Of a stretch of DNA of 48,035 bases, positions 46 to 5,578 are shown piece after piece. Both the position numbers and the translations under genes were made by a program. The notes beneath the pieces were generated by a model. It saw only the letters and a list, made by a program, of their open reading frames with translations. It searched no databases and was not told the origin of the DNA. Source of the stretch: Chlorobiaceae bacterium (GTDB lineage Bacteria > Bacteroidota > Chlorobiia > Chlorobiales > Chlorobiaceae); NCBI GenBank assembly GCA_013334925.1, contig JAAXWP010000013.1:1-48035 (forward strand), in the 5' to 3' direction. The stretch's first letter is position 1. Every line of letters begins with the position of its first letter.

Positions 46-2970
46 ATGAGATTTTGGGAAAGAAAAATATCTGCCCTTTTTGGTGTGGTAATATTGTTTT
101 TTGTTCTTTTTATTCCGCTTTCATTAGATAATATTGTTGTTCAATTATCGGGCGGAGTAGATTCAAGATCTGTTATCGCTGCTCCATATGTGTTGTGTTA
201 TTCTGACAATGTAAAAGTAATGAAAGAAGAGAATGATAAAATTGGTGTTCAGAAAACTACTGTTGGTCTAGAAAGTGATGCGATTTCATTTTTTAGTATT
301 AAGTACTGGACAGCTCAATCACTTGTTGCTATATTTGGGTGCTTAGTGAGTGTTGGTGGGCTGTTTTTTGCATGGTATCAACATTGGGGTAAAACATTCT
401 TTTTTATTAAGAAAAAACTGAAAAAGTATAGGTCATTTATTAGTGAGGATTTGGGCTGGATAAGTATGCCTGGATTGCCTGGTGGAGTCGAAAATATAAG
501 AGTAGGTCTTAATGATGGTACTTTTGTTCAGCTTCATTTTGTTGAGAGTATTAATATTGTTGATCTTCCGTCAGAGGCTGATAAGTTTCAAAATTCAGCA
601 AGTGATGAACATACTCCGGATGAAATTGTTCAGAGGGCGTTCAATAATGACAGAAGGATGCTTCTGGTGATTGGTGATTCTGGAGCAGGAAAGACTACTT
701 TGCTTCAGTATTACGCATTTTGCGCACTTGACAGAAGAAGATGTCGAAGATTGGGGTTTAATAGACGGCCACAGGTTTTTTATTTTCCGCTTCGTCTTCT
801 TGTGATAACTGAAAATCTTTCAGAGAATCTGGCACGATATGCGAAACAATGTCAACTTGATATAGATGCATTTCTTTTTGATAAATGGCTGCAGAAAAAA
901 TCTTTTGTTTTATTTGACGGACTAGATGAGATTAGTGACCACGAAGCTAGAGAGGCTGCATGTAAGTGGATTGATCGCTCATTGACAACTATGTTGGATG
1001 GGTATTTTGTGGTGACTTCGAGAAGGAGTGGTTATGGAGTTGATAGTTTGAAAAAATATGATATACGATTGATGTCAAGTCATAAGAGAGCTGATGTGCT
1101 TGACTTTTCTGTTGAACAACAAGAGGATTTTTTGCATAGATGGTTTGAGGCTGCTTATTTGCTGGATGATAAAGAAAATAATATTGATATTTCTGCATGG
1201 AAGAAAGCGCAAAAAGAAAAAGCGAAAAATAAGAGCGAACAGATAATTACTGCACTAAAGGATGAGAAAAATAGAGGATTGCGACAGCTGGCGGGCATTC
1301 CTATGATTCTTCAACTTATGGCATTATTATGGAAAAAGAACGGTTTTCTTCCTTCTGGTAGGATAGATTTGTATGGATCTGCATTGGACTACATGCTTCA
1401 GTTACGCGATAAATCAAAAGATATAAAATCCCCGTTAACTGCAGGGCAATCACGATTGGTACTTACCCCAATAGCATGGTGGATGCAGAATGATTTGCAA
1501 AAGGACGAGGCAAGTAAAAAAGATATGATAAATAAAATGGAGCCGGAACTATCAAGCCTTGCAGACCGTCAATTTACTCCTCCAGCAGCAAAAGAATTTT
1601 GTGAAAATCTTGTGAAAAGGGCCGCTCTTTTATCTGAGACTTCTACCAATTATATGTTTAGACATAAGTCATTTAGAGAATATCTCGCAAGTATTGAATG
1701 GATAAAAAGGTGTCGGCGAACTGGTGGATACATTGATATGATCGTCAATGTATTTGGTGAGGATTGGTGGAGTGAACCTTTGAGGTTCTTTTTTGCACAG
1801 AGCGATGCTGAAATATTTGATTTATTTATGGGGAAATTAATAGAAGGTGTTAGAGATCAACCGCTTCCTCCTAAAAAAACGTTGTTGCTCGGATATATTA
1901 TTGATGAGGCTCCTCAAAAGAAAGTGTCCTCACTATGCGAGAAATTATTGGATCCAGATACTACTGAAATATGCCAACGCCTCATTCTTGATTGTTTGTT
2001 TTCTATAGGGCAAGTAGAAGCTTATGATTCTATAAAAATTTTTAAATCTCAGTGCCATAATAAAAATTATGATATTGCTTCTCGTGCAGAAGAGGTTTTG
2101 CTGACACTTGATCCGGAAAATCGTAAAACAGATCATCTTCAATATTCCAATTCTTTGTTGGATCATCCAAAATCTTTTAGAAATATTATTGAAAATCAAG
2201 CGGAGTATATACTTGTTGATGCGGGATCATTCGCTTGTGAATTGACGGGAAAACATGAGTATGTTAAAGGATATTATATGTCAAAGTATTTAGTTACGAA
2301 TAGGAGATATCGTCTATTTATTAACTATCTACATACCGGTATTCATCCGAACATACAAAAGAAGATAGATTTAGATTTCCTTAATTATTCTATAGAGATG
2401 TTGGCTCAAGAGTCGCAAATTAAGGGGCTAATAGATACTATAAAGAAACAAAAAAATCTATCAAATTATTTACAGTCAAGATTTGATGGAGATAGGAAAT
2501 TTGGAGGCGACGAGCATCCTGTTGTCGGAGTTACATGGTTTGGTGCACGTGCTTATTGTTTGTGGTTGTCAATGTTGGAAAGTAATGGTGTTGAAAAAGA
2601 GATATACAGGCTACCAACTGAGATTGAATGGGAATATGCTGCTATGGGAAAATCAGGACGGCGATACCCGTGGGGTGATAAGCCGCCTACTTCACAAAGA
2701 GCAAACTACGGTGATATTTTTGGGACGACTACCCCAGTAGGCAGGTGCCCTGCAGGGGCATCACCAGAAGGTATAAATGATCTCGCAGGAAACGTTTGGG
2801 AATGGATGGACGATTGGTATAAAATTAATGAAAAAAGTGCTAAATCTTTACGTGGTGGTTCATGGCACAGTTCTCCTGAATCACTTCGCTGTGGATCACG
2901 TGACTTTTATCATCCAGTTCTTAGAAGCCCATTTCATGGATTTAGGGTCGTTCGGGGAAATATCCCATGA
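46..2970 (+). CDS. Membrane-anchored NACHT (STAND) NTPase fused to an FGE/C-type-lectin-like domain
   Basis: A 974-aa protein with three parts. Two hydrophobic segments (about residues 10-30 and 88-112) would anchor it in the inner membrane with a short outside loop. A NACHT-type NTPase follows: Walker A GDSGAGKTT at 210-218, Walker B FVLFDGLDEI at 287-296 and a TSRR sensor near 324-327; FREYLASIEW lies near the end of the NTPase/helical part. The C-terminal ~250 residues form a formylglycine-generating-enzyme-like (SUMF1) domain: YRLPTEIEWEYAA, YPWGD, NDLAGNVWEW, RGGSW and GFRVVR. The GGSWHS segment has no cysteine where true FGE has its catalytic pair, so it is probably a binding fold, not an oxidase. 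NACHT proteins of this sort are STAND switches, many in phage defence or biological conflict; that role here is inferred. Base composition is strikingly AT-rich compared with everything after position 3778, suggesting recent transfer. The downstream neighbours are repeats, not partner genes. The start ATG at 46 is the first in frame in the window. Confidence 0.85.
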   Translation: MRFWERKISALFGVVILFFVLFIPLSLDNIVVQLSGGVDSRSVIAAPYVLCYSDNVKVMKEENDKIGVQKTTVGLESDAISFFSIKYWTAQSLVAIFGCLVSVGGLFFAWYQHWGKTFFFIKKKLKKYRSFISEDLGWISMPGLPGGVENIRVGLNDGTFVQLHFVESINIVDLPSEADKFQNSASDEHTPDEIVQRAFNNDRRMLLVIGDSGAGKTTLLQYYAFCALDRRRCRRLGFNRRPQVFYFPLRLLVITENLSENLARYAKQCQLDIDAFLFDKWLQKKSFVLFDGLDEISDHEAREAACKWIDRSLTTMLDGYFVVTSRRSGYGVDSLKKYDIRLMSSHKRADVLDFSVEQQEDFLHRWFEAAYLLDDKENNIDISAWKKAQKEKAKNKSEQIITALKDEKNRGLRQLAGIPMILQLMALLWKKNGFLPSGRIDLYGSALDYMLQLRDKSKDIKSPLTAGQSRLVLTPIAWWMQNDLQKDEASKKDMINKMEPELSSLADRQFTPPAAKEFCENLVKRAALLSETSTNYMFRHKSFREYLASIEWIKRCRRTGGYIDMIVNVFGEDWWSEPLRFFFAQSDAEIFDLFMGKLIEGVRDQPLPPKKTLLLGYIIDEAPQKKVSSLCEKLLDPDTTEICQRLILDCLFSIGQVEAYDSIKIFKSQCHNKNYDIASRAEEVLLTLDPENRKTDHLQYSNSLLDHPKSFRNIIENQAEYILVDAGSFACELTGKHEYVKGYYMSKYLVTNRRYRLFINYLHTGIHPNIQKKIDLDFLNYSIEMLAQESQIKGLIDTIKKQKNLSNYLQSRFDGDRKFGGDEHPVVGVTWFGARAYCLWLSMLESNGVEKEIYRLPTEIEWEYAAMGKSGRRYPWGDKPPTSQRANYGDIFGTTTPVGRCPAGASPEGINDLAGNVWEWMDDWYKINEKSAKSLRGGSWHSSPESLRCGSRDFYHPVLRSPFHGFRVVRGNIP
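2848..2970 (+). other. Candidate diversity-generating variable region at the 3' end of the NACHT-FGE gene
   Basis: The last ~40 codons follow the scaffold R-G-G-S-W-x-x-x-P-x-x-x-R-x-x-x-R-x(4)-P-x-x-R-x(4)-G-F-R, the C-terminal layout of FGE-fold variable proteins targeted by diversity-generating retroelements. The x positions carry H, S, S, E, S, D, F, Y, H, V, L, S, F and H, while the scaffold residues are intact. Ordinary FGE-fold homologues share this scaffold. I see no reverse transcriptase and no template repeat in the window, so this is only a candidate. Confidence 0.3.
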
Positions 2971-2981
2971 TGGATAAAATA

Positions 2982-3644
2982 GGGGATGTTCACAACAAAC
3001 ACAACTTCAGTTCAGAATAGCATGGATGATGAGCCGGTGGCAGGGTAGGATGATGTTGGTTGCGGGAATGAAGTGATGTGAGGAACGCCGGGTTGAAACC
3101 CGGTGGAAGCCGTTGAGGCGGTTGGGCTGAAGCCCGGATTAATATGGTTGCATTGACCCCCCGGCTGAAGCCGGGGGCAATTGAAAAAGAAACAAGGGGA
3201 CGTTAACAACAAATACAACTTCAGCACAGAAATGCGCTGTGATGAGCCAGTGGCAGGGGAGGATGATGTTGGTAGCGGGAATAAAGTGATGTGAGGAGTG
3301 CCGGGTTGAAACCCGGTGGAAGCCGTTGAGGCGGTTGGGCTGAAGCCCGGATTAATATGGTTGCATTGACCCCCCGGCTGAAGCCGGGGGCAATTGAAAA
3401 AGAAACAAGGGGACATTCACAACAAACTCAACTTCAGCTCAGAAGAGCACGGTTGATGAGTCGGTGATAGGGGAGGATGATGTTGGTTGCAGGTATGAAG
3501 TGATGTGAAGAGTGCCGGGTTGAAGCCCGGTGGCAGCCGTTGAGGATGTTGGGCTAAAGCCCGGATTATTATGGTTGCATTGACCCCCGGGCTGAAGCCC
3601 AGGGCAATTGAAAAACATGATTTGCTTACGGGAGAGAAAAAATA
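2982..3644. repeat. Three tandem ~214-bp hairpin-rich repeat units
   Basis: Units begin at 2982, 3196 and 3409, each with a GGGGAYRTT start followed by an ACAACAAAYWCAACTTCAG-like stretch; a fourth start (GGGGACGTTC) appears at 3645 but is not continued. Units 1 and 2 are nearly identical. Unit 3 is diverged and has an unrelated ~20-bp tail. Each unit holds three short stem-loops with the same core: CCGGGTT-GA-AACCCGG, GGGCT-GA-AGCCC and CCCCCGGCT-GA-AGCCGGGGG. The open frames seen on the minus strand here are simply the repeat translated and are not believable genes. The ~800 bp between the NACHT gene and the tRNA hold nothing else that I recognise. Confidence 0.9.
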
Positions 3645-3741
3645 GGGGACGTTCTACAGCAAGCGAAATGGCTTCGTGAAGAAGTGCTCGTACTCTGAAC
3701 AAATAGAAAGGCTGATCCGAGAGCGATGCTTACGGGAGGGC

Positions 3742-3776
3742 AAAAAAAAAAGACACGGAACATGCCGTGTCTTTTT
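3742..3776 (-). terminator. Rho-independent terminator of the tRNA-Gln gene
   Basis: On the minus strand, immediately after the tRNA, the sequence forms a stem AGACACGG / CCGTGTCT with an ATGTT-type loop followed by a run of ten T residues. Because of the A-run on the other side it could also work weakly in the plus direction. Confidence 0.85.
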
Positions 3777-3777
3777 G

Positions 3778-3850
3778 CTGAGGAGCCAGGACTCGAACCT
3801 GGAATTGCCTGATCCAGAATCAGGAGCCTTACCAATTTGGCCACTCCTCA
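3778..3850 (-). tRNA. tRNA-Gln (anticodon CTG)
   Basis: Read on the minus strand, the acceptor stem TGAGGAG pairs with CTCCTCA, and the T-arm contains GGTTCGAGTCC. The anticodon stem CCTGA/TCAGG encloses the loop TTCTGGA, giving anticodon CTG (plus-strand 3815-3817). The 3' CCA is not fully encoded. The 3' end points towards the AT-rich NACHT gene, the geometry expected for an integration target. Confidence 0.93.
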
Positions 3851-4147
3851 ATCAAGTGGACTCAATATACGGAAAGTCTGGAAATATCATAGCCTGATTT
3901 TTAAAAAAATTCGACTTTTTTATTCGATCGGGAGTGGTGGCTATGAGACTCTCTCAGGAGTCGGGTTCAGCACCAATGAAGGTGGGCGGTCATTCCTGAC
4001 CGCCGTTCAGTGGCGGGTTGGAAAATCCGCATCTCTTTCAATATGATGCTTATGGATAGCTGGCACGGCTCTTCATTACCCTTTTCTAGGTTATAACGCT
4101 GTTTCGCTTCCGAAACAGTCTCATGATTCGGTTTTGGTCGGGCTGCG
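3851..4147. other. Intergenic region between tRNA-Gln and the efflux operon
   Basis: No gene is supported. Two perfect hairpins are present: GGCGGTCA/TGACCGCC at 3985-4004 and CTGTTTCG/CGAAACAG at 4099-4118. Neither is followed by a T-run on the minus strand, so they are at best weak 3' structures of the efflux operon mRNA. The segment 3880-3920 is A/T-rich and should contain the tRNA promoter (TATATT lies ~18 bp upstream of the tRNA on the minus strand). Confidence 0.5.
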
Positions 4148-5578
4148 TTATTTCCAGCCTCCACCGAGGGCTTTGTACAGGTCGATCAGGTTTGCCAGGC
4201 TCCGCTGATGCACGAGGATCTCGTTCTGCTGCGCTTCATAGAGCGACCGTTCGGCGTCGAGGAGCGCAAAATGGCTGTCGATTCCGTGCGCATACCGGGC
4301 TTTCGTGATCGTTTCGGCCTGTTCGCTTTCCCTTACCAGCGCGCGCTGGGCTTGCAGCTGTTCGGTGTAAGTAGCACGGGCTACGAGGGCGTCGGCAACT
4401 TCACGGAATGCGGTCTGGATCGCTTTTTCGTATTGCGCGAGGGCGATATCCCGGTTGTTTTCAGCAAGCCTGAGGTTGGATCGCAGTCGTCCAGCCTGGA
4501 AGATCGGAAGCGTCACCTTCGGGGCGAAACTCCAGATGCCGCTTGAACCGGCCACGAACAGGTCGGAAAGGCTTGTGCTGGCATATCCGGCCGAACCGGT
4601 GAGGCTGATGCTTGGGAAAAATGCCGCCCGTGCCGCACCGATGTTGGCGTTTTCCGCTTTCAGGGCATACTCCGCCTGCAGGATGTCCGGTCGTTCGAGC
4701 AGGACGACTGCCGGAATGCCTGCAGGGAGCGTTTCCATCACCTGGACCTGGGCAAGTTTTTCCGGTTCGAGAAGCGCAGGATCGATCTCTTTGCCGACCA
4801 GCAGTGTCAGTGCGTTCTTGTCCTGTTCGACCTGGCGCTGGTATTGCGCACGGCTCGCACGGGCGGCTTCGACCAGCATGGAGGACTGTGCAACGTCCAG
4901 ACGCGACTTTGACCCCAGGTCGAAACTGCGCCTGATGAGGTCGTTTGCTTCCTGCCGGGTTCTGAGCGTGTTCTCGGTCAGTTGCAACAATTCGACGTCA
5001 GCCAGGTAAGTCAGGTAGGCGTTCGCGACTTCGGCGACCAGTGCTGTCTGTGCGGCTTTGCGCCCCTCTTCGGTGGCGAGGTACTTGTTCATGGCGCTGC
5101 TGCCGAGGTTTCGCACCCGTCCGAAAAGATCCACTTCGTATGCTGTGGCGCCGATGCCGGCAACATAGGTCGAGGTGGTTTCCGTTTTGCCTGTGCCGCT
5201 CGTGCTTTCGGACAATCGTTGCCGGGTGTAGCTGCCCGTGGCGTCGATCGATGGCAGGAGGTCCGCTCGCTTGATGCGGTAGGTGTTGCGGGCCACCTCG
5301 ATGTTGAGCGTGGCAATGCGCAGGTCACGGTTGTTCGTCAGGGCGGCCTCGATGAGGCGTTGCAGCTTCGGTGACTGGAACATCTCCCGCCATCCGATCT
5401 GAACGGTATTCAGTTGCCTGCCGGTTGCCGGATTTACTGCATATGTGGAGTCCGTGCCGGCCGAGGCTGGCCATTTTGCGCTGACCGGGGGCGTCGGGCG
5501 CTGGTAGTTTGGCGCGAGCGAACAGCCCGTGAGGGTGGTTGCCGCCAGGCAGATCGAAAGCAGCGGTTTACTGTTCAT
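4148..5578 (-). CDS. Outer-membrane efflux lipoprotein (NodT/OprM family)
   Basis: A 476-aa outer-membrane factor, the exit duct of a tripartite RND pump. The N-terminus is a lipoprotein signal with the lipobox LTGC, cysteine at about residue 19, followed by SLAPNYQRP, which is typical of the NodT/OprM/CusC group. Two repeats of the OEP fold are visible, with long Gln/Ala/Glu-rich helices, and the segment [16 protein letters not shown]-x-QAE is a family hallmark between the repeats. The length is normal for the family. It is the last gene of the operon, and its start overlaps the end of the pump gene by 11 bp, which suggests translational coupling. It would form a trimer through the outer membrane that docks on the periplasmic adaptor. 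The substrate cannot be read from the sequence. Confidence 0.93.

Follow-up and report, generated by a model that had tools for sequence, protein, structure and literature searches.

The first gene of the window (the whole 48,035-nucleotide stretch analysed here, from a green sulfur bacterium) encodes an NLR-like protein that belongs with the DGR-diversified STAND-CLec putative antigen sensors of Doré et al. 2024 (PMC10907252), and is a membrane-anchored variant of these without a detectable DGR. On balance, we believe that this protein works as a membrane-tethered NLR-like switch, with an FGE/CLec sensor whose DGR-derived face is now fixed, and with an N-terminus that disturbs the membrane.

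A NACHT-FGE receptor at the edge of a contig

The receptor gene is an open reading frame of 974 codons with zero internal stops. The contig starts at window base 1, 45 bases upstream of the ATG, hence its 5' context is absent and the start codon is putative; the contig end matched none of the genome's other contigs, so no upstream neighbour can be inferred. The features discussed below are as follows:

46-2970, forward strand: NACHT-FGE receptor gene, 974 aa (open reading frame and Pfam; putative start codon)
67-123, forward strand: first hydrophobic segment, residues 8-26, signal peptide or signal anchor (hydropathy; signal-peptide-like N-termini of homologues with the same layout)
319-375, forward strand: second hydrophobic segment, residues 92-110, transmembrane (TM) helix followed by a lysine-rich stretch (hydropathy; helix in the model)
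655-1152, forward strand: NACHT NTPase domain, residues 204-369 (Pfam PF05729; Foldseek to NLRC4/NOD2/NLRP3)
673-696, forward strand: Walker A, GDSGAGKT, residues 210-217 (sequence; conserved in the family)
916-930, forward strand: Walker B, DGLDE, residues 291-295 (sequence; invariant across the family)
2257-2955, forward strand: FGE-sulfatase / C-type-lectin-fold domain, residues 738-970 (Pfam PF03781; profile match to TvpA, 2y3c)
2851-2952, forward strand: variable repeat (VR)-like segment, residues 936-969 (gap-free alignment with sister-genus DGR template repeats; family-wide hypervariability)
3777-3850, reverse strand: tRNA-Gln, beyond the tandem repeats

The Pfam NACHT match exceeds the family cut-off (E 5e-9), and the FGE-sulfatase match is the best of the whole protein (E 2e-41). 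Structure prediction of the full-length protein, which the first-pass annotation had put forward as a check, recovered the NACHT fold: the AlphaFold2 model, whose quality is lowered by an input of the window plus a limited set of related loci, has a mean pLDDT of 69, with 80-95 over much of the NACHT/helical part, and Foldseek matched it to NLRC4, NOD2 and NLRP3, with the C-terminus matching FGEs and TvpA, a DGR protein of Treponema. The protein combines Walker A, an extended Walker B and an NLR-type fold, as expected of a NACHT NTPase, and both motifs are intact, as that annotation had stated. It had also described an FGE-fold C-terminus lacking the catalytic cysteines, and this too is borne out by the Pfam match and by inspection of the GGS(W) loop (GGSWHSSPESLRC), where we take the FGE cysteine pair to lie and from which it is absent. 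The FGE end is likely a non-enzymatic, candidate ligand-binding part.

To the right of the receptor gene lie only repeats, the tRNA-Gln and then an efflux-type operon on the opposite strand, which agrees with the earlier remark that no effector gene is found on that side. The repeats comprise three tandem copies of ~213 bases (2976-3666) with GC-rich palindromes, parts of which recur on other contigs. The receptor gene has a G+C content of 37%, whereas 30 homologues range over 43-57% and the efflux-type operon lies at ~60%.

The C-terminus carries a VR-like segment

The last ~34 codons of the gene align without gaps to DGR template repeats (TRs) from the sister genus, and the 34-residue product of one TR type aligns gap-free to RGGSWHSSPESLRCGSRDFYHPVLRSPFHGFRVV. 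Across 31 aligned family members, the positions equivalent to AAY codons in the TR are hypervariable while the framework is near-fixed, with a mean identity of 10% at the variable sites, independent of relatedness elsewhere in the protein. The FGE/CLec domain also matches TvpA (2y3c) by profile (E 1e-20) and by Foldseek (E 3e-7). Judged by its sequence, the FGE end belongs to the DGR variable-sensor type.

Homologues (E <= 1e-30) were found in 14 of the 61 genomes searched (own genome counted among them); these genomes belong to two genera of a single family and gave as many as 12 matches each. Several homologues lie near reverse transcriptases (RTs) carried by the same contig. A protein search of genome contigs added two matches, L100 from a Chlorobiaceae relative and a distant one in the Prolixibacteraceae, and viral contigs yielded one metallophosphoesterase-NACHT-FGE protein (L207) and many FGE-type proteins, none of them close. 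L207 lies at 1019-4573 of IMGVR_UViG_3300028837_004134 in the viral collection. On L100 (98-5062 of a Chlorobiaceae MAG contig), two FGE-type genes stand in tandem, one for an FGE protein of 476 aa and one for a NACHT-FGE, and an open frame resembling the end of a DGR-type RT precedes them. In the family tree, the window gene pairs with L021 (100/100), and the place of this pair within the family is unsettled; the two share 0 of 12 variable residues and 80% of the framework.

Six homologue neighbourhoods have neither a partner gene nor a metabolic operon in common, so that the check on homologues' neighbours suggested by the first-pass annotation favoured its view, and we reject a metabolic-operon reading of the locus.

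Diversification in relatives, and its apparent end in this genome

In the sister genus, TR/VR pairs adjoin RTs and homologous NACHT-FGE genes, and the repeats differ only or nearly only at template adenines. The clearest case is one genome (G035) in which a single TR fits five dispersed receptors, with mismatches at 0-3 of 61 non-A positions and at 13-18 of 29 A positions. The fitting set includes L084, L082, L096 and L108 (contigs C97, C87, C96 and C113), whose N-termini differ, and L084 has the window gene's own layout of signal segment plus TM. A whole receptor set would here appear to be diversified in trans from one TR. The same bacterial family also has DGR template/variable pairs whose sequences are of other types (L071/L136, L077/L135, L137 and L122).

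Adenine-directed diversification has also left its marks within the window's own genus. The receptors L037 (G020, a one-contig assembly) and L046 (G008) are 99% identical in the NACHT part and 100% in the VR framework and share 4 of 12 variable residues (33%); the 15 base differences in the core VR are all confined to codon positions 1 and 2. A search of 21 genomes from the genus revealed no TR that would suit both receptors, and a short TR pattern that gave exact TRs in ~15 sister-genus genomes gave none in the window's genus, a longer pattern agreeing. Since these siblings look diversified and yet the genomes of the genus yielded no TR, the diversification is either older than a loss of the DGR, or arrived with acquired genes, or is driven from uncaptured DNA.

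In the window's own assembly, which is scored 100% complete, no RT (PF00078) was matched, by a search identical to that which was positive in 32 of 46 family genomes. The VR itself was the sole match in this assembly to a TR-compatible pattern when as many as 3 mismatches were allowed, and blastn of the VR against its own genome returned no TR. An active DGR in cis is rejected, RT and TR both being absent from the assembly.

The VR itself tells a similar story. At the 12 template-AAY positions, NNY codons are found at 10 in the window gene (background 49%, p 0.017) and at 8 in L021, its nearest relative, compared with 175 of 180 in other genus members (window gene and L021 jointly, Fisher p 4e-4); judged from the window gene by itself, the 10 of 12 lend a DGR past modest support. 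Against four known TRs, the window VR has mismatches at no fewer than 28 of 82 non-A positions, compared with 8-9 of 63 in the siblings L029, L032 and L046: its framework is kept, with many synonymous changes, far above the siblings. Because RT and compatible TR are missing, NNY codons are reduced and non-A mismatches are in excess, we read this VR as probably retired: the gene would descend from a DGR-diversified receptor and now have a fixed specificity.

A membrane module among exchangeable N-termini

Two hydrophobic peaks (Kyte-Doolittle 2.67 for residues 8-26 and 2.07 for residues 92-110) stand out at the N-terminus, and beyond residue 150 no 19-residue stretch exceeds 1.31 on the same scale. 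The first-pass annotation had counted two membrane segments here; two hydrophobic segments are indeed present, but homologues that share this layout begin with what resembles a signal peptide and then have a short linker before their one TM, so the pair may be a signal peptide and a single TM. With either reading, NACHT and FGE are predicted to be cytoplasmic because a lysine-rich stretch follows the second segment.

This layout is shared by the window gene, L021, L027, L029, L042, L084 and L097 (L045 is similar), and its carriers are scattered across the family tree. Indeed, N-termini swap family-wide between DUF4062, metallophosphoesterase, an SPSDV-type N-terminus and the signal segment plus TM, and close relatives of some membrane-layout members bear one of the other three: L029 and L035 have 74% in common in the NACHT part, and L042 and L081 83%, with differing N-termini. 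PDC-S60, a phage-defence candidate, is matched by the N-termini of two siblings, and DUF4062 has been reported to be a TIR-like NADase of antiphage defence (PMC13174449, preprint 2026). Such exchangeability is as expected for swappable effectors. By analogy, the membrane module would occupy the effector position, and might form a pore; it contains no effector domain recognisable by Pfam and resembles no known effector.

Discussion

The first-pass annotation had proposed a receptor-switch in one chain. The layout is supported by the NACHT and FGE domains (Pfam, Foldseek), and the non-enzymatic FGE end stands; what this interpretation overlooked is that the sensor is of DGR type and that the N-termini are interchangeable. 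FGS/CLec domains occur in conflict systems (PMC7159879), and the closest parallels are the DGR 3 and DGR 6 sensors of Thiohalocapsa PB-PSB1 (clade 5D, PMC10907252), which likewise join STAND/NACHT to a C-terminal FGE/CLec with a VR-type segment and have N-termini that vary across the family. Unlike these, the window gene is solitary, begins with a signal segment plus TM, has a partly decayed VR and lies in a genome without a detected RT or TR. Doré et al. also describe trans action, targets at disrupted loci and diversity possibly older than the locus disruption (PMC10907252). The order of N-terminal effector position, NTPase and C-terminal sensor recalls Avs and other bacterial NACHT defence proteins, although the sensor is here an FGE/CLec; with PADLOC, no Avs-type model matched the protein, and only weak mad8/mad3 P-loop matches were obtained. 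The sibling receptor L034 carries DUF4062, as in the Swarozyc TIR-like NADase (PMC13174449), where the window gene, itself without DUF4062, has its TM. Finally, Treponema denticola TvpA (PDB 2y3c), a DGR variable protein, shares the FGE/CLec fold and variable C-terminal segment, but its solved chain has no NTPase and it belongs to an RT/TR-bearing system.

We posit that the cytoplasmic C-terminal FGE/CLec domain would act as the sensor. The VR-like segment would be its binding face, diversified by a DGR among the ancestors of the family and by now most likely fixed in the present lineage. A bound ligand would free the NACHT NTPase for nucleotide exchange and oligomerisation, which would gather the N-terminal membrane segments and most likely disturb the inner membrane, and in a defence role the infected cell would thereby be halted or killed.

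How firmly is the sensor fixed? It seems improbable that it is still an active target, served by an RT and TR in unassembled DNA or in other strains of the species. The contig does stop just short of the gene, a single TR appears to act in trans on dispersed receptors in a relative, and the genus siblings look diversified though their own assemblies are without a TR. However, RT and compatible TR are absent from a genome scored as complete, the NNY form is missing from 2 of the 12 template-AAY codons, and the siblings show far less synonymous drift. A little less improbable, but still unlikely, is that the lineage was never diversified, and that DGR targets arose from or beside a fixed FGE-type sensor. 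This would suit the modest NNY excess in the window gene and its sister, the unsettled position of their clade and the occurrence of FGE-fold domains without DGRs; it sits poorly with the gapless framework match to TRs, with hypervariable positions that coincide with those of DGR targets, and with the lack of any shared variable residue between two sisters that have most of the framework in common.

The N-terminus raises a further question: would the membrane segments be only a tether, with a separate partner, perhaps encoded in the missing upstream DNA, as the effector? We hold this to be possible but rather doubtful. The module is short and lacks a recognisable effector domain, the upstream context is missing, and some STAND-CLec systems recruit a separate protease (PMC10907252); on the other hand, no partner gene recurs in the six homologue neighbourhoods, and the module fills the place of the DUF4062 and metallophosphoesterase domains of sister genes. 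As for an FGE- or sulfoxide-synthase-type enzyme with a regulatory NTPase, the top Pfam match, FGE-sulfatase, speaks for it, but the missing cysteine pair (given the presumed loop position), the fusion to NACHT, the hypervariability of the very segment equivalent to the FGE active-site loop and the want of a metabolic operon in the six homologue neighbourhoods make this highly improbable.

The proposed membrane-tethered switch with a retired sensor face has implications beyond this gene. An NLR-like switch is here tied to a hypermutated sensor, and some members still show marks of hypermutation while lacking the mutator. A common NACHT with differing N-termini, and one TR with five receptors, offer a natural system for tests of effector swapping and trans-diversification, and likewise of how a diversified repertoire becomes fixed. 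More tentatively, and with rather less confidence than in the switch itself, we could speculate that DGR-made NLR-like sensors have been kept as fixed, inherited alleles after a genus-wide loss of the DGR, the membrane module serving as an effector within the same chain. If so, a diversified repertoire would have become a set of innate, germline-like receptors.
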